From Thermodesulfatator indicus DSM 15286 (GTDB lineage: Bacteria > Desulfobacterota > Thermodesulfobacteria > Thermodesulfobacteriales > Thermodesulfatatoraceae), in assembly GCF_000217795.1 (NCBI RefSeq), contig NC_015681.1, positions 735,244-799,243 on the forward strand: 64,000 nucleotides of DNA. The letters run 5' to 3'. Below, in pieces: positions 29,001 through 45,085 of the stretch. The translations under genes were made by a program, and so were the position numbers. Every line of letters starts with the position of its first letter. The stretch's first letter is position 1. The notes under the pieces are model-generated. The model did not search any database, had not been told where the DNA came from, and saw only the letters and a list, made by a program, of their open reading frames with translations.

Positions 29001-29066
29001 CTGGCCCCCTAACGCTGACTGAACGACAATCAGCCACCAGCAGAACTTTTTCACTTCTTCAACTAC

Positions 29067-29906
29067 TCAACAACCCAACCACTCAACCAACTCCTCCCTC
29101 CAATCAGCTATCTCTATATTTAACTTTTTGCAGATCCTAGAATTACTCATAGCAGAAAAACGTGGTCTTTTGGCTGGTAAATCAAAATCTGCCTGAGAGG
29201 CTGGATAAATAAACTTTTTTATCCCTTTAATCTTGAAAAACGCTTTCGCCCACTCATAACGGGAAGCATATCCGGAGTTTACAAGGTGATAAAGCCCTTT
29301 TAATCCTGTATCAAGAGCTTTTAAAGTTACCTCAACTATGGTTCTCGTTGATGTAGGCACTGAAAACTCATCACAGGCAATTCTTAAATACTCCTGTTTT
29401 TCTGCCCACTGCATAAGCTTGTAAAGAAAATTTTGCTTTCCCTCTCCATACACCCAGCTTGTACGAAAAATTAAATAATTCTCAAGATTATCTCTTATAA
29501 AATTCTCTCCATAAAGCTTGCTTTTTCCGTAGTTATTCAAGGGATTTGTATCATCTTCTTCAGTATAAAGACCCTCTTTTTCTCCATCAAAAACATAATC
29601 TGTAGAATAATGGACTAAAAAACTATTATATGTTCTGCAGGCATAAACAAGATTGCATACTCCTCCAAAATTAACCCTCATTGCCTCCCAGGGAAACTCT
29701 TCAGCCCTATCCACAAGATTATAAGCCGCACAATTTATAACCACATCTGGCCTAAATTCTTTAAAAACTTCTAAAACTCTAGTTAAATTTCCTATGTCGC
29801 ATTCTTCTCGGGATAAAAACAAACACTTATACTTAGACTGCTCTCTTAAGACATTTCCAAATGTGCTTCCAAGCTGCCCTCTTTTTCCTAAAATTAGTAC
29901 TTTCAT
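29067..29906 (-). CDS. rfbD: dTDP-4-dehydrorhamnose reductase
   Basis: Final step of dTDP-L-rhamnose synthesis. A 279-residue short-chain dehydrogenase-like protein with GKRGQLGSTF nucleotide loop, YSTDYVFDGEKEGLY and the YGKSKLYGE catalytic Tyr-Lys. The C-terminus LVEWLGC is encoded by a low-complexity sequence also found at the end of rfbC. The ATG is directly preceded by the right end of dispersed repeat copy c, so its original leader is gone and there is no clear Shine-Dalgarno. Confidence 0.95.
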   Translation of the reverse strand: MKVLILGKRGQLGSTFGNVLREQSKYKCLFLSREECDIGNLTRVLEVFKEFRPDVVINCAAYNLVDRAEEFPWEAMRVNFGGVCNLVYACRTYNSFLVHYSTDYVFDGEKEGLYTEEDDTNPLNNYGKSKLYGENFIRDNLENYLIFRTSWVYGEGKQNFLYKLMQWAEKQEYLRIACDEFSVPTSTRTIVEVTLKALDTGLKGLYHLVNSGYASRYEWAKAFFKIKGIKKFIYPASQADFDLPAKRPRFSAMSNSRICKKLNIEIADWREELVEWLGC

Positions 29907-29911
29907 CACTT

Positions 29912-30078
29912 ATTAATCCGAGCGTTTTTTACACGACAAATTATCGCCGCTGACATAATCGCTAAAGCAAAGTAAGCTTCGCTGTCACTGCGAGGCCTCG
30001 TTAGAGGCCGAAGCAGTCTCATGGATTGCTTCGCTTCGCTCGCAAAATGACTCACTTGTCGCCTATTTAGTGACCCCA
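29912..30078 (-). repeat. Dispersed composite repeat, copy c (complete)
   Basis: Read on the minus strand: GGTCACTAAATAGGCGACAA, GCGAGCGAAGCGAAGCAATC, GAGACTGCTTCGGCCTCTAA, CGAGGCCTCGCAGTGACAGC, TTTGCTTTAGCGATTATGTC, AGCGGCGATAATTTGTCGTG and the end CGCTCGGATTAATA. It lies exactly between the rfbB stop and the rfbD start, with ATTAAT on both sides, and looks like a clean insertion. Confidence 0.85.
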
Positions 30079-31074: not shown

Positions 31075-31114
31075 CGCTTCCTCCTACTACTCAACAATTC
31101 AACTAATCAACCAC

Positions 31115-31666
31115 TCAACCACCCAACCACTCAACCAAAAACGACGCCTTTCTATCCTTTTCCGAAAGAATAGGTTCTTCCTTCAAAGGCCAGTTTATAC
31201 CTATATCAGGGTCATTCCACCTGATACTTCTGTCATGTTCCGGCGAATATTCACTACCTGAAACCTTATAAATAATCTCTGCTTCCTCAGAAATGGTCAG
31301 AAAACCATGAGCAAATCCCTTAGGTATCCAAAGCATTAGTTTGTTTTCTTCGGAAAGTTCTACTCCTACCCACTTTCCAAAACTTGGACTTCCTTTTCTT
31401 ATATCAACAGCCACGTCAAAAATTTTTCCCCTTATGCATCTTACAAGCTTTCCTTGAGCTTTAGGCTCGATCTGAAAGTGTAGTCCTCGTAGCACATTCT
31501 TTATAGATTTTGAATGATTATCTTGGACAAAATCCGTATCAATTCCGGCCCTTTCAAAATCAGACTTTTTATAGGTTTCCATGAAAAAACCTCTTTCGTC
31601 ACCGAACACTTTCGGTTTTACGATGATCACCTCTGGGATTTCCGTTTTTATGAATTCGAAGGGCAT
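31115..31666 (-). CDS. rfbC: dTDP-4-dehydrorhamnose 3,5-epimerase
   Basis: Cupin-fold epimerase of the rhamnose pathway, 183 residues. DERGFFMETYKKSDFERAGID, FVQDNHSKSIKNVLRGLHFQIEPKAQGKLVRC (catalytic His in LRGLHFQ) and IPKGFAHGFLTISEEAEI are the family signatures. AGGAGGAGAA precedes the ATG. The last residues LVEWLGG are built by the same low-complexity DNA as the RfbD end. Confidence 0.97.
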   Translation of the reverse strand: MPFEFIKTEIPEVIIVKPKVFGDERGFFMETYKKSDFERAGIDTDFVQDNHSKSIKNVLRGLHFQIEPKAQGKLVRCIRGKIFDVAVDIRKGSPSFGKWVGVELSEENKLMLWIPKGFAHGFLTISEEAEIIYKVSGSEYSPEHDRSIRWNDPDIGINWPLKEEPILSEKDRKASFLVEWLGG

Positions 31667-31682
31667 TTCTCCTCCTTCTTTA

Positions 31683-31701
31683 GTGAAGAGTGAACAGTGA
31701 A
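31683..31701 (+). repeat. GTGAAGAGTGAACAG low-complexity repeat, arm 1
   Basis: Reads GTGAAGAGTGAACAGTGAA just outside the four-helix-bundle gene; the inverse-oriented, longer arm lies at 32085-32155 on its other side. Confidence 0.7.
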
Positions 31702-31720
31702 CCAGTAAATAGACAGAAAA

Positions 31721-32077
31721 TCAATCTTTCTTTTTCTCTTTCAAATACTTTATTAAACCTATTAGCATCCTTCTTATAAAGATTAACTTTTCTATCTCAG
31801 AATTTATTACATCAATATATGACAACTCTTTTGCAATAATTAATTGTGTTTCAAGCTCCGCCAATGAACCCAAAGAGATATATAAAAATTGCACCAACTC
31901 ATTATCAGAATTTCTAGCACAACCTTCTGCAATATTTGACGGCACAGATATTGCCGCTTTTCGCAACTGACTAGTTAAACCATACAACTCATTTTTAGGA
32001 AATTTCTCTGTTATTTCATATATACGTTTTACAAACTTGATACTTTCTTTCCATACCTCCAAATCTTTATGATCCAT
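31721..32077 (-). CDS. Four-helix-bundle protein (23S rRNA intervening-sequence family)
   Basis: A 118-residue protein of the S23/IVP family: DLEVWKESIKFVKRIYEITEKFPKNELYGLTSQLRKAAISVPSNIAEGCAR is the full signature, followed by LGSLAELETQLIIAKELSYI. These small basic bundles are found in rRNA intervening sequences and as stand-alone mobile genes; function is unknown. ATG 32077 has AGAGGTGG just upstream; GTG 32083 is the alternative. It interrupts the rfbA-rfbC order and is bracketed by inverted GTGAAGAGTGAA repeats. Confidence 0.9.
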   Translation of the reverse strand: MDHKDLEVWKESIKFVKRIYEITEKFPKNELYGLTSQLRKAAISVPSNIAEGCARNSDNELVQFLYISLGSLAELETQLIIAKELSYIDVINSEIEKLIFIRRMLIGLIKYLKEKKKD

Positions 32078-32084
32078 TTCCACC

Positions 32085-32155
32085 TCTCTTCACACTTCAC
32101 TCCTCATCCTTCACTCTTCACTTCCTTCACTCTTCACTCTTCACTATTTCACACA
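32085..32155 (-). repeat. GTGAAGAGTGAAG low-complexity repeat, arm 2
   Basis: On the minus strand repeated GTGAAGAGTGAAG units. The array covers the rfbA stop codon and encodes the last RfbA residues (IVKSEE). Confidence 0.75.
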
Positions 32156-40117: not shown

Positions 40118-41759
40118 TTTTTCCTCCATTATTTTCAATTATAGATTTTATAAGATTAATAACTCTTTCTCTACCCTTCCTAACTTCTTTCGAAAGCATC
40201 AAGCGATTCATTAATTTTCTTTCTTCAAAGTTATTAATAAGTCTTTTAAATACATCCAAAATTTCTTTATTTGATACATTTATTCCTAAACCCAAATTAA
40301 TAAATCCATTCTCAGAATTTGCGAAAAAGTGCGTCAGTTCTCTTTCATTTTGCGCCAAAACTATAGTTGGAGTCCCTATACAAGCTATTTCATATACAGT
40401 TCTTCCAGCTGAGGTAAAAATAATATCAGCATCTAACATATATTGAGAAATATTTTTTATATTTTCAAACATTTCGATATCTTTAAAATTTGATAAAGAA
40501 TCTTGGTATTTATAACCTAAACCTAAAATAACCTTAATTTTTATTCCCTGTTGCACGCAGTAATCATAAATACTTTTCAATGTTTTAAGAGTAAGATTGT
40601 TGGGATCTGTGCCTCCAAATGTAATTAGCACATTTTGTACTTCAGGAGACACATTTTTAAATTTGGAATAAATAAATTCATCACGTGGTACAAAATATTT
40701 ATATCCAAAATAATGATTTGGAAGAGGCTCTCGTTCAGGATAGAGAGCATTTATAACAAGATCTGCATATCTTGCTCCTTCCCCTAAATCTTCAAAATTG
40801 ATAACCGTATAACCTTTATTTTTAAGTGACAGGACATATTCCTTAGAAGTATCTAAAATATCATTGATTACCACATCCGGATCTATCTTTTCAATATCAT
40901 CTAAAATATTTTCAGATTGCTGTAAAATAACAGGATAATTATACTCTTTTATTTTTTGCAATCCCAATATACTTTTTTTATCAACTAAAAACAGGAGATC
41001 ATGCGATGTAATATTATTTGCTATTATTAAAGTCCTGTACACATGTCCTAAACCTATTTCTCTATAACCTGACACTACAAATAAAATTTTTTTCTTATTT
41101 AATAGATATTCACATAGATTCCAATCTTCATAAGTATCTATATCAATAGCTTCTATTTCCGAAAGAAGATATAAATTTATATTTTTACCTATTCTCGTCC
41201 CATATTTTAAAAGATTTTCTGATTTACAGATAATAAATCCTCCTGTCTCTAAATAAATGGGTTCTAAAAATTGCCTATTAACTCTTTCTTTATATAGTGG
41301 CACAAATTTTCCATGCTCTTTCTTCCACATTAAATGGGCAAACTTTTTGGCAGATATAATCGTATCGTATTGGGAATCAAGAAATTCTTTGATAGCACTT
41401 ATTAAAGTTCTTGCTTTAAGAAGAGGTGAAGTTGGTTGTATAGTAATTATATAGTCATACGTTTGCTTACATTCTTTACTTAAAGACTTAAAAACATCTA
41501 AAATCACTTCATCTAAAGTGGTTCTATCATCCGCAAGTTTCTTTGGGCGTTTATGAATTTTAGCTCCAAACTTTTCTGCTATAGCGATAATTTCTTCATC
41601 ATCACTACTAACATAAACATCAACATCAAAATCTTTAGCAGCTTTTAATGCAGTTTTTATAGAATAATAAATTAAAGGTTTCCCTGCTAAATTTCTAATA
41701 TTTTTTCTCGGAATTCCCTTTGAACCACCTCTTGCCGGAATTATAAGTAAGCCCTTCAT
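40110..41759 (-). CDS. Fusion: CMP-nonulosonate cytidylyltransferase + PseG-like nucleotide-sugar hydrolase
   Basis: A 549-residue two-domain protein. Residues 1-225 are a NeuA/PseF-type cytidylyltransferase ([29 protein letters not shown]; later [16 protein letters not shown]). Residues about 228-549 begin [26 protein letters not shown] and match PseG/SpsG, the GT-B-fold enzyme that removes UDP from the trideoxy-sugar ([42 protein letters not shown]). One polypeptide would thus do the steps just before and just after the neighbouring NeuB-type synthase. Head of the AT-rich operon. Confidence 0.88.
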
Positions 41760-41774
41760 GAACTACTCCTATAA

Positions 41775-41922
41775 GCCCGAATTTTTCCGGCCCCAGAACC
41801 CGCACCAAGTAGGGCAGAGTGACCAGCGGCAAAATATAATTCGCTCCTTGAAGAACCGAAAGGGAAATGAAGTTTTCTAAAAGCCGGCGTTTGTCTTTGT
41901 CCCGCAATTTGGCGATGATCAT
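41775..41922 (-). pseudogene. N-terminal remnant of a Wzx-type flippase
   Basis: From ATG 41922 the minus strand reads [18 protein letters not shown], then [20 protein letters not shown] and [12 protein letters not shown], a textbook RfbX N-terminus (first ~48 residues). The reading then enters the start of the cytidylyltransferase gene and stops, so at least 85 percent of the flippase is missing. Codon use is GC-richer than the present cluster; likely the scar of an older O-antigen cluster. Confidence 0.82.
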
Positions 41923-41984
41923 AGTGTTAGTGTTAGTGTTAGTGTTGGTGATGGTGTTAGTGTTGGTGTTGGTATCACTATCAC
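41923..41984. repeat. GTGTTA/GTGTTG hexamer array 1
   Basis: Plus strand AGTGTTAGTGTTAGTGTT continued by GTGATG/GTGTTG units and then TATCACTATCAC. It covers the stop codon of the four-helix-bundle gene and touches the ATG of the flippase remnant. Confidence 0.85.
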
Positions 41985-42463
41985 TTCCCCTTCCTGCTCC
42001 TCTGCAACAAAGATGATGAAAGCGATCTAAGCATTTTTGAAATTTGGTTAACCTTTTCTATCAACTCGACATATTTGGACTCATCTAAATACCCCAAGTC
42101 CTTAGCCAGCAATAAATGATATTTCAATTCTCCTACAGAACCATTTGCAATTCCTACAAACTGTCTAAATTCTTTTGAACTATGTCTATGACTACCTTCC
42201 ATCAAATTTGAACAAATAGAACTAGAAGCTCTTCTTATTTGAGATACCAGAGCAAACTTTTCACTTTTTGGAAATTTTCCTGTTAATTTATATAATTCCA
42301 AAGTAAGTCTATGTGCCATTTTAAAAACTTCTAAATCTTCTGTCTTTTTTATTTTAGTGTTAGTGGTGTTGCTAGTGCTGGTGCTGGTGATAGTGTTAGT
42401 GTTGGTGTTCCTACCACTACCACTATCACTACCACTCACTAAATCCTTCCATCCATTCGCCAT
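41981..42463 (-). CDS. Four-helix-bundle protein with repeat-encoded Asn/Thr/Ser N-terminus
   Basis: A 160-residue protein whose residues 40-155 are S23/IVP-type: [51 protein letters not shown], then [16 protein letters not shown]. The first ~38 residues are low complexity ([18 protein letters not shown]) and are encoded by hexamer array 2; the stop codon lies in array 1. A six-base unit keeps the frame, so unit gain or loss would only change tail length. The start MANGWKDL is plausible but the gene may begin later. Confidence 0.75.
42354..42438. repeat. GTGTTA/GTGCTG hexamer array 2
   Basis: Plus strand AGTGTTAGTGGTGTTGCTAG, then GTGCTG, GTGATA, GTGTTA and GTGTTG units, closed by CCTACCACTACCACTATCAC. 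It is translated on the minus strand as the N-terminus of the four-helix-bundle protein. Confidence 0.85.
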
Positions 42464-42493
42464 CTATCAACCTCTATCACCTCTACAACCTCT

Positions 42494-42940
42494 TCAAATC
42501 CCACTAAACGGATTTACAATCTTTAGCCTGTTTTCAATCACCTGCCCATCCTGCATGTCTTCTGTATAAAGAATTGAACAATTGCTTTCCAATGCTGAAG
42601 CCACTATAAGACTATCCCAAAATGACAAATTGTACCGAATTCTTAATGTATTAGCTTTCATATAAGTAGTTAAATGTAGACTTACTATATTTGTAATTTT
42701 TATTACATTTTCATGAATCAATTTCACAACTTTTTCATCTGGCAATTCAAACTTTCTAACAAGATTCCAATGGCATTCGTTAACTACTTGAATAGATATG
42801 AAAATTTGTGCCTGCTGTTTTAGTAATTCTTCAAGCACTAGTAAAGAAATTTCTCTTTTATTTTTATCAGCCTCTAATTCACTTTCTGTAAGCCCGTATA
42901 TCCAAATATTTGTATCTACAAAAACTCTATCTTCTTTCAT
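42494..42940 (-). CDS. PIN-domain nuclease (VapC-like)
   Basis: A 148-residue PIN protein: RVFVDTNIWIYGLTESE (first Asp), SIQVVNECHWNLVRKF (Glu), LSFWDSLIVASALESNCSILYTEDMQDGQVI (later Asp/Glu). Overlaps the small upstream gene by 14 bases, the usual antitoxin-toxin arrangement. The C-terminal sequence GQVIENRLKIVNPF is mirrored by a pseudogene fragment at 43170-43245. Confidence 0.88.
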   Translation of the reverse strand: MKEDRVFVDTNIWIYGLTESELEADKNKREISLLVLEELLKQQAQIFISIQVVNECHWNLVRKFELPDEKVVKLIHENVIKITNIVSLHLTTYMKANTLRIRYNLSFWDSLIVASALESNCSILYTEDMQDGQVIENRLKIVNPFSGI

Positions 42941-43130
42941 ATATTTCTTCCCGTGCTGTAATTTTTGAATAAGATTTTACTTTTATAGGTTGATAGAAAC
43001 CTTTAGGCAAAAGCCCTCTCTTTTTAATTTTATATTTTTTCAAGAGCATCTGATAAAACTCCATTAATTCTTTTTTGGCCTCATTGGGTAAGATTTCAAG
43101 GTCTAACTGTTCTTGGTTTAATTCTTCCAT
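42927..43130 (-). CDS. Small putative antitoxin
   Basis: A 67-residue protein (MEELNQEQLDLEILPNEAKK..., then LMEFYQMLLKKYKIKKRGLL), resembling DUF2281-type antitoxins that pair with PIN toxins. ATG 43130 has AGGAGG eight bases upstream; the longer reading to 43160 is not needed. Function inferred from overlap with the PIN gene. Confidence 0.72.
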   Translation of the reverse strand: MEELNQEQLDLEILPNEAKKELMEFYQMLLKKYKIKKRGLLPKGFYQPIKVKSYSKITAREEIYERR

Positions 43131-43169
43131 TTTTGGTCCTCCTGCATTTTTTACTATCATTAAGTTTTT

Positions 43170-43245
43170 TAAATTCCACCAAACGAATTTATAATCTTTA
43201 GCTTCCCCTCAATCACTTGATAACATTCCCACAATCACCTGTCCA
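43170..43245 (-). pseudogene. 3' remnant of a second PIN gene
   Basis: Minus strand reads QVIEGKLKIINSFGGI and stop, matching QVIENRLKIVNPFSGI at the end of the intact PIN gene (42494). Nothing of the remaining gene is present; an upstream GGACAGGTGATTGTGGGAAT looks like a second, out-of-frame copy of the same piece. Confidence 0.7.
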
Positions 43246-43252
43246 TTTGATT

Positions 43253-43353
43253 TTAGTGTTAGTGTTGGTGCTAGTGTTGGTGCTAGTGCTGGTGCTAGTG
43301 CTGGTGTTAGTGTTGGTGTTAGTGCTCCTACCACTACCACTAGCACTAACACT
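43253..43353. repeat. GTGTTA/GTGCTG hexamer array 3 with hairpin end
   Basis: About fourteen hexamer units (GTGTTA, GTGTTG, GTGCTA, GTGCTG) followed by CCTACCACTACCACT. GTGTTAGTGCT (43316-43326) and AGCACTAACAC (43342-43352) form a perfect 11-bp stem. It abuts the stop codon of the ATPase gene at 43356. Confidence 0.88.
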
Positions 43354-43355
43354 CA

Positions 43356-44426
43356 TTAACCCGCCCTCTCAAGCAAAATCTCCATTCCCTTCTCATATAT
43401 CCGGCTGTTGCCAGTTACCTTGAGCTCCAGCGGATCATAAAATAGTATCTCTTTCTCCGCCCAGGCCTGCAGAATCCTCCTTTTATCCGCCTTTAATCCG
43501 CTTATATCAAAATACCCTTTATCCACTATCTCTTTCGCCACCTTCACAAAAAACTCTGTCTCCTCTTCACCAAACTCGGCTAAATACTCATCTATCTCCG
43601 TATACGCCAACCAGGCTTCTCTTTTTAAAAATTCTTCTAAATTCTCTCCCTTCTTCCTGGCTTTTATTGCTTCTAAAATAAATGAAATAGCGCCACCTAA
43701 ATACTCCCAAATAACCTCTATTTCTTCTTTCCTGAAATTCTCTATTTGAAGCCATTCAAAAACTTTCTCTCTGCTTAGATGGTCTATCTTTTTAAACCTA
43801 CTCGTAGCTTTCATCCTTGCATCATTATATATCCGCTCTATAAATACCGTGTTTGACGTAAGAATAACCACATGGCCTAAATGCTTCTCTTTTGTCAGGC
43901 TTACACAAAAGTTTAAAAACTCCTTGAGCAGCTCCCTATTGCTATTTATGTATAAATCCTGAAGCTTCTGTATCTCATCTATTATTAAAATCGGCCTCTT
44001 ATTTTGCGCTTGGTTCTCTATCTCTTCCATCAACGCCTCAAATAAATCTTTCTCCCGCGCTTCTATTTCCTTGATCTTCTTCCTCTCTATAGAAAACACC
44101 CTTAATGAAAAACTCTTGTTACTCTCTACGGTTTCCTTATACACGTCGTCCGGCACTATAAACGCATGCAAAAACGTCTTATAGCTGGAAATCAGCTTGC
44201 GGCGCAAATTTATGTACTTCACCCAGAATTTGCTCTTCTCCCACCAAGCGCCCTCTCCTAGCAGCTTCTTCTCCACCACATACTCTATCACCGTCGTCTT
44301 ACCGCTTGACTTCGGCCCATATACCCAGAGTATCCTCTGCGGAACTTCATTAAACCAGTCAACAAAAAACTCTATCTCCTCTTCCCTATCTATAAACGGC
44401 GCCCCGCGGTAGGTCTCTATCTTCAT
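43356..44426 (-). CDS. Archaeal-type ATPase (P-loop STAND-like)
   Basis: A 356-residue ATP-binding protein of the archaeal ATPase family: FIDREEEIEFFVDWF, Walker A WVYGPKSSGKTTVIEYV (about 33-48), Walker B PILIIDEIQKLQDL (about 147-160), sensor VVILTSNTVF, and a winged-helix-like C-terminus (GYFDISGLKADKRRILQAW). These ATPases are abundant in archaea and thermophiles and have no settled role, so lateral transfer is likely. It precedes the PIN module and follows a four-helix-bundle fragment, which it overlaps by four bases. Confidence 0.85.
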   Translation of the reverse strand: MKIETYRGAPFIDREEEIEFFVDWFNEVPQRILWVYGPKSSGKTTVIEYVVEKKLLGEGAWWEKSKFWVKYINLRRKLISSYKTFLHAFIVPDDVYKETVESNKSFSLRVFSIERKKIKEIEAREKDLFEALMEEIENQAQNKRPILIIDEIQKLQDLYINSNRELLKEFLNFCVSLTKEKHLGHVVILTSNTVFIERIYNDARMKATSRFKKIDHLSREKVFEWLQIENFRKEEIEVIWEYLGGAISFILEAIKARKKGENLEEFLKREAWLAYTEIDEYLAEFGEEETEFFVKVAKEIVDKGYFDISGLKADKRRILQAWAEKEILFYDPLELKVTGNSRIYEKGMEILLERAG

Positions 44427-44695
44427 TTTCTACTCCGTTTTGGTTTAGAGGTTGTAAAAGAAAGAAAATATCTTAATTCTTCCAGAAAACTTCGGGGAAT
44501 ATAAAGATTCCTTAAATATTCTTTCTTGGTTTTCTTCGAATGTCCTTCAACAATGTTTGCAGGCACAGAATAAGTGGCTCTTTTAATTTGATCTCCAAGA
44601 GAATAAGTCTCTGCCCTGGAAAAATCTCTTGTCAAACTATAGACTCCTAGTACCATATCGTGAGCCTTCTGCCATACTACTATTATTCCGAGCAT
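44423..44695 (-). pseudogene. Four-helix-bundle gene cut by a dispersed repeat
   Basis: The reading IIVVWQKAHDMVLGVYSLTRDFSRAETYSLGDQIKRATYSVPANIVEGHSKKTKKEYLRNLYIPRSFLEELRYFL is an S23/IVP protein that lacks its last third and its own first codons. The N-terminal residues MLGI come from the right end of dispersed repeat copy d (TGCTCGGAATAATA), which supplies a chance ATG. Probably non-functional, but a short product cannot be excluded. Confidence 0.72.
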
Positions 44696-44845
44696 TTTTG
44701 CACGACCAAACGTTATTACAAGGCTCCATAATAGCCCTGCCCTCTCTTTGTCACTGCGAGGCCTCGTTAGAGGCCGAAGCAGTCTCACAGACCCCTTCGC
44801 TGCGCTCGGGACAAGGATTGCTTTGCTCTGCTCGCAATGACAGGG
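44683..44845 (-). repeat. Dispersed composite repeat, copy d
   Basis: On the minus strand it runs from TGTCATTGCGAGCAGAGC through CGAGCGCAGCGAAGGGGTC, GAGACTGCTTCGGCCTCTAA, CGAGGCCTCGCAGTGACAAA to a diverged right half ending TGCTCGGAATAATA. It sits between two four-helix-bundle gene fragments. Confidence 0.8.
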
Positions 44846-45018
44846 AATAAGAAAATATCTTAGCCCCTCAAGCGAGCCTCTAAGATATAATGATACCTTA
44901 AAAATTCTTTCTTGCTACGTTTAGAAGTCCCCTCAACTATGTTTGCAGGCACAGAATAAGCCAACCTTTTAAAATCTTTTAGCAATTCATAAGCTTTCTA
45001 CCATATTACCAAATTATC
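44845..45018 (-). pseudogene. Degenerate four-helix-bundle gene copy
   Basis: Minus strand reads NLVIW, stop, KAYELLKDFKRLAYSVPANIVEGTSKRSKKEFLRYHYILEARLRG, stop, DIFLF. It aligns with the fragment at 44423 (VVWQKAHD..., ATYSVPANIVEGHSKKTKKEYLRNLYI) but has in-frame stops and an internal deletion of about 20 codons. Confidence 0.78.
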
Positions 45019-45085
45019 ACCTCTACACCCTCTACAACATCTACCCTCCCAAAATTTTAAAAGATTACTTTGGCCGTTTCCAATT

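Follow-up and report, generated by a model that had tools for sequence, protein, structure and literature searches.

Genes of the PF05635 family (23S rRNA intervening-sequence protein, S23; a four-helix bundle, 4HB) are known from the intervening sequences (IVSs) of 23S rRNA genes, e.g. those of Leptospira and Coxiella (PMC4990558). The 23S IVS of Coxiella (428 nt) contains a terminal stem and an S23 ORF, and it is cleaved by RNase III in vitro. Its ORF is preceded by GACAGAT heptamers, whose number varies between strains, and 23S IVSs are placed at the tips of existing rRNA helices (Warrier et al., PMC4990558).

Heptameric simple-sequence repeats have also been described as abundant components of bacterial genomes: GGGANTN in Xanthomonas and GGGGAYT in Nostoc (PMC4692102), and TAACTGA in Beggiatoaceae (PMC4679880). 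In Xanthomonas campestris, 186 GGGANTN arrays were recorded; inverted pairs were noted in 70 cases, and the arrays were not generally associated with mobile elements (Rehm et al., PMC4692102). Here, we describe arrays of short repeats that border PF05635 genes, and we compare them with these systems.

Short-unit arrays and PF05635 genes of the window

The analysed DNA is a 64-kb stretch of the Thermodesulfatator indicus DSM 15286 genome (2.32 Mb), referred to below as the window. It contains three arrays of the hexamer GTGNTR (GTG fixed, a free position, T and a purine), which lie at gene borders and all read forward on the plus strand, as a first-pass annotation of this DNA had claimed. The features of the locus are as follows:

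41761-41922, minus strand: truncated start of a Wzx flippase gene (PF01943, 41 residues); its ATG abuts array 1
41922-41973, plus strand: array 1, GTGNTR units with a short inverse tail to 41986; on the 4HB sense strand, the 3′ C-rich arm
41981-42463, minus strand: 4HB gene, 160 aa; PF05635 with E=1.5e-39, above the cut-off; core at about 42026-42340
42354-42409, plus strand: array 2, GTGNTR units, C-rich on the 4HB sense strand and in frame within the 4HB ORF
42411-42436, plus strand: inverse tail of array 2; on the 4HB sense strand, the G-rich 5′ arm (GTGGTAGTGATAGTGGTAGTGGTAG)
42463-42497, plus strand: 9-mer array (TCTATCAACC/ACCTCTACA type) bordering the PIN gene on its 3′ side and resembling the array beside the third 4HB copy
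42494-42940, minus strand: PIN-domain toxin gene between arrays 2 and 3, part of a presumed toxin-antitoxin pair
42927-43130, minus strand: presumed antitoxin ORF
43168-43219, minus strand: 3′-end remnant of a second PIN gene beside array 3, 81% identical to the 3′ end of the PIN gene in genome G003 (same genus)
43253-43326, plus strand: array 3, GTGNTR units, with an inverse tail at 43328-43353

The arrays are real and well above chance: their scores are 83, 64 and 114, compared with 0.6 arrays per 64 kb and a top score of 61 in 30 third-order Markov resamplings of the window. A pattern search for further arrays in the 2.32-Mb genome found GTGNTRGTGNTRGTGNTRGTG (three GTGNTR units plus GTG) confined to these three, and a 400-kb genome sample contained zero arrays of period 5-9 at a TRF score of at least 50. 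Elsewhere in the phylum the hexamer formed a few short runs, mostly of the GTGGTG/GTGCTG type, and a reversed-pattern control gave similar results in some genomes.

The inverse tails that the annotation had assigned to all three arrays are clear for arrays 2 and 3, which run into their own reverse complement (CTACCACTACCACT...); array 1 has a short tail only (ATCACTATCACTT). The longest perfect stem is 6 bp in array 1, 9 bp in array 2 and, as annotated, 11 bp in array 3 (GTGTTAGTGCT/AGCACTAACAC), which folds well as an RNA hairpin (-33.6 kcal/mol, z -3.8). The claim that array 2 is coding agrees with the predicted 4HB ORF, in which the array lies in frame between the four-helix core and the sole upstream ATG (plus a GTG). 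The full-length protein would therefore contain array 2, whose translation would give the Asn/Thr/Ser-rich N-terminal stretch of about 38 aa.

On the minus strand, the order of the locus is ATPase, array 3, antitoxin, PIN toxin, array 2, 4HB gene, array 1 and the ATG of the truncated Wzx. A Pfam scan of the proteins of this module yielded matches to PF05635, PIN, ATPase_2 and flippase, and no transposase. The PIN-antitoxin block (42492-43143) shares 93% identity with a block of G003 that has different borders and is devoid of GTG arrays, which indicates that the block has moved or recombined as a unit; the remnant of the second PIN gene indicates that at least two PIN modules were formerly present. 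The order in G003 is the wzx start, a GTTCAAG array, a different 4HB gene, an array, HicA/HicB-like genes and an array; thus, the layout recurs and the unit changes. The Wzx-like start fragment of G003 (L309, 8973-9245), like that of the window (41695-41922 in this comparison), has its ATG directly beside the array of a 4HB element, built of a different unit. G003 was also considered as an empty site and rejected, since it keeps the PIN-antitoxin block and the ATPase in another gene context and offers no clean empty site.

The genome encodes four PF05635 genes in total, all within the window and each adjoining its short-unit arrays. The suggested link between the GTGNTR arrays and the other arrays of the window is supported. 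The remaining copies are:

31682-32145, minus strand: second 4HB element; gene at 31719-32080, heptamer arms at 31682-31702 and 32086-32145
44426-45044, minus strand: third and fourth 4HB copies, decayed (about 44456-44680 and 44884-44997), with a 9-mer array at 45019-45044

The arms of the second copy (L004) consist of AGTGAAG/AGTGAAC units and reach an inverted-arm score of 19, against a shuffle maximum of 14. Arrays of an 8-mer (ACTCAACC type) were also observed at rfb gene borders (29059-29093 and 31089-31137) with no 4HB gene between them; they probably represent elements of this kind that have decayed or carry no gene. In addition, the window contains a dispersed palindromic repeat, GTCACTGCGAGGCCTCGTTAGAGGCCGAAGCAGTCTC...GCTCGCAATGACA, at 29980-30060 and 44750-44850, the latter copy separating the two broken 4HB pieces (44.4-45.0 kb). 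Pieces related to this repeat occur in tandem in four genome samples (L287, L290, L294 and L295).

Several other origins were examined. Rfam gave zero matches in the window, the 4HB locus being intergenic and outside any rRNA gene, and an rRNA or other known RNA at this position was rejected. Zero matches to reverse transcriptase (PF00078) were found in the genome, and retro-mobility through a resident enzyme was rejected. A phage origin was also rejected, as the window 4HB protein is unmatched in 50,697 phage records.

The window protein also matches bAvd (PF22296), the Avd accessory protein of diversity-generating retroelements, with an E value of 4.7e-8 that falls short of the curated cut-off; the two folds are related. 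Avd is pentameric, and the PF05635 structures 2gsc and 2rld comprise five chains each. In contrast to a diversity-generating retroelement, no reverse transcriptase was found in the genome, and a variable-repeat gene was not seen.

Inverted arms of PF05635 loci

PF05635 loci were sampled from the host phylum (74), from GTDB genomes of many phyla (77) and from Xanthomonadaceae, the family of Pseudoxanthomonas (32). Flanks of 300 bp on either side of each gene, extended to 350 bp downstream in Xanthomonadaceae, were compared by inverted alignment, and a locus passed when its score exceeded those of all 40 shuffles. Inverted arms were detected in 64 of the 74 phylum loci, 59 of the 77 GTDB loci and 28 of the 32 Xanthomonadaceae loci, so that 10 and 18 loci of the first two sets failed; among the controls, 4/28 HicA loci and 1/30 ribosomal S20 loci passed. 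Within 7-kb phylum loci, 60 arrays were counted within 250 bp of a 4HB gene (about 20 kb), as opposed to 82 in the other 258 kb.

The arms share a common anatomy. Their period is mostly 7 or 14 (in a few cases 8), and they start at a median of 33 bp from the PF05635 domain on each side. The inner distance from arm to arm is tight (median 396 bp, 10-90% range 359-484), and this space of approximately 400 bp is occupied by the 4HB ORF. On the gene strand, G is enriched and C depleted in the 5′ arm at 109 of 121 loci (p about 1e-20), which gives the element a polarity. Of the 124 armed loci, 96 have a start codon that follows the arm and precedes the core, and in 27 the reading frame continues across the entire 5′ arm; the arm is thus normally outside the protein, and the fact that array 2 codes in frame, although real, is of secondary importance.

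Similar arms were found in 33% of pairs of loci whose proteins are at least 70% identical, in 13% at 60-70% and in under 1% below 60%. Similarity of the arms thus tracks that of the proteins at close range only: the arms accompany the gene and turn over fast. Such turnover fits a protein that would tolerate drift of its binding unit, and equally one that would not bind it; recognition is not proven by it. Inverted array pairs were also found without a 4HB gene, so this gene need not be present in each copy.

The published GGGANTN heptamers, as GGGAATC/GGGATTC arms, bracket many PF05635 genes of the sampled Xanthomonadaceae genomes, a match that had been predicted ahead of the search in this family. 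The solved structure closest to the window 4HB protein is that of X. campestris XCC0516 (2gsc). The arms resemble the published heptamers in unit type, in degeneracy at fixed positions, in intergenic location and, for Xanthomonas, in the frequent inverted pairs. They differ in that no gene link was drawn for those repeats (PMC4692102, PMC4679880) and that the Beggiatoaceae arrays are mostly direct.

Filled and empty sites

On named cyanobacterial plasmids, PF05635 genes interrupt operons, including nrdB/nrdA, cas10/cmr3 (as in Picosynechococcus PCC 7003) and conjugation genes. Six pairs (A to E, and L270/L233), all of them cyanobacterial and hence other than the genus of the window, were examined by aligning filled plasmids with others that have a matching backbone but no PF05635 gene. 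In all six, the gene and both arms are absent from the empty site, which indicates that they were inserted as one unit of about 0.45 kb. At sites B and D, the flanks beside the insert are too diverged for base-exact edges, and only sites A (GTAATTA) and C (ATTCTA) hint at a target duplication, of 6-7 bp. In Nostoc plasmids, one and the same operon holds two distinct 4HB elements, which differ in their arms and occupy separate junctions.

Gene-less inserts with the same arms were also identified, both between genes (L235, L142) and nested within a 4HB ORF (L236, 1080-1560), the latter forming its own hairpin. In this respect, and in their small size and inverted ends, the elements resemble MITEs, REPINs and gene-less hairpin elements. 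Unlike those, they have ends made of tandem arrays that vary by lineage, and the linked gene encodes a four-helix bundle rather than a transposase. Two cyanobacterial plasmids carry a 4HB element within a CRISPR-Cas operon: L139 between cas6 and cas4, with very long AAAAGCT arms, and L146 between cas10 and cmr3.

The same structure is found within an rRNA gene. In Azospirillum lipoferum (L145), a full-length 23S rRNA match encloses a classical IVS, namely a 4HB frame flanked by 7/8-mer arms. Together with the features of the Coxiella IVS, this indicates that the intergenic PF05635 elements have IVS anatomy. Both kinds have (i) the same gene family, (ii) terminal inverted repeats, (iii) the ORF in the loop, (iv) a similar size and, in Coxiella, (v) heptamer units before the ORF (PMC4990558). 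The elements described here differ in that they are located between protein genes and have arms that are tandem arrays of many different units; the window, moreover, has a rearranged multi-array form that includes a PIN module.

Origin and significance of the arrays

The arrays are very probably the terminal arms of IVS-type insertion elements of about 0.45 kb, in which a PF05635 gene stands between a G-rich 5′ arm built of short tandem units and a 3′ arm that is its reverse complement. This reading draws on the family-wide anatomy, the polarity of the arms, the joint insertion of arms and gene, and the occurrence of the same structure in a 23S rRNA gene. We consider it very unlikely that the arrays are independent simple-sequence repeats that arose by polymerase slippage at gene junctions, with the 4HB and PIN genes merely nearby. 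Unit number and sequence do change quickly, as seen in copies that differ by whole units (L144 is two units longer than L238) and among Coxiella strains. However, slippage cannot give reverse-complement arms of fixed polarity and spacing, the arrays are specific to PF05635 genes and not to HicA or S20 genes, the 400-kb genome sample is free of them, and arms and gene are jointly absent from empty sites; this explanation is largely refuted. The first-pass annotation had proposed one general process by which low-complexity repeats are seeded where accessory genes meet. Because the controls and the 400-kb sample tie the arrays specifically to PF05635 genes, and since arrays and gene come and go together in the filled/empty comparisons, this process is rejected, and the earlier interpretation as a whole is only partly supported.

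There is likewise little probability that the arrays, or the palindromes they form, were already present in the host as targets for insertion of the 4HB gene. Such a preference would agree with the position of 23S IVSs at existing rRNA helix tips (PMC4990558) and with array 3 of the window, which exists without a 4HB gene; it is contradicted by the six comparisons, none of which has an array at the empty site, and by closely related 4HB genes that keep similar arms in different genomes and at different sites (the arm unit TCAGGAGTCAG is common to A, B and C). Nor is it at all probable that array 2 has been retained for its in-frame hexamers, as a means of varying the N-terminus in a phase- or length-variable 4HB protein. 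The array is in frame with no start codon between it and the core, and the frame is open through the 5′ arm in the 27 loci mentioned above, but at the majority of loci a start codon separates the arm from the core, the prevailing unit length of 7 bp would break the frame, and arrays 1 and 3 have no known coding role.

As arms of an insertion element, the arrays could pair in RNA to form a long stem with the ORF in its loop. RNase III may cut this stem, as documented for 23S IVSs, and in that case insertions into transcribed regions would be tolerated. The 4HB protein may recognise a stem or cruciform formed by the arms and help these to spread, and slippage together with uneven exchange among units would change unit number and sequence quickly.

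The window locus is a special case. On the gene strand, its order is G-arm, C-arm, PIN module, G-arm (4 units), C-arm (10), 4HB, short G-arm (2) and C-arm (9); the canonical pair is the outer G-arm before the 4HB gene and the C-arm after it, and the extra halves make each junction palindromic. The flanking arrays are mainly direct and not simply inverted (42 vs 17 in the window, 38 vs 11 in G003), so this locus is no textbook copy, and the whole element folds mildly better than shuffles (z -1.8). We infer that this form resulted from arm duplication and exchange between neighbouring elements. The arms would have been copied in such a way that the junctions 4HB/wzx, 4HB/PIN and PIN/ATPase each gained a palindromic array, and the PIN toxin-antitoxin module would have ended between two of them.

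S23 IVSs in rRNA genes, the heptamers of the Coxiella IVS and the abundance of heptamer repeats are already known. In the open-licence papers covered, we found no report of non-rRNA PF05635 genes as mobile units with heptamer-array ends; nor, in open-licence papers, did any report match the Xanthomonas repeats to the ends of PF05635 elements. The novelty of the link between S23, mobility and heptamers is therefore provisional. A broader proposal is possible, if tentative: S23/4HB genes may define a class of minimal mobile elements that is very widespread and in which inverted, self-evolving arrays of short units (mostly 7 bp) form the ends. Such elements and their gene-less derivatives might then be the main source of the heptamers over-represented in bacterial genomes, with 23S rRNA IVSs as only the best-known members, and the protein might recognise the arms of its own lineage and promote movement without a classical transposase or reverse transcriptase.

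Elements built in this way prove to be widespread in bacteria and would account for many puzzling 7-bp repeats. Two old puzzles meet here, namely the role of the S23/IVS protein of fragmented 23S rRNAs and the spread of IVSs, on the one hand, and the richness of bacterial genomes in heptamer tandem repeats, on the other. If it is true that intergenic S23 elements with heptamer arms are mobile, both become directly testable. Such elements may also explain the odd low-complexity N-terminal tails of annotated four-helix-bundle proteins.
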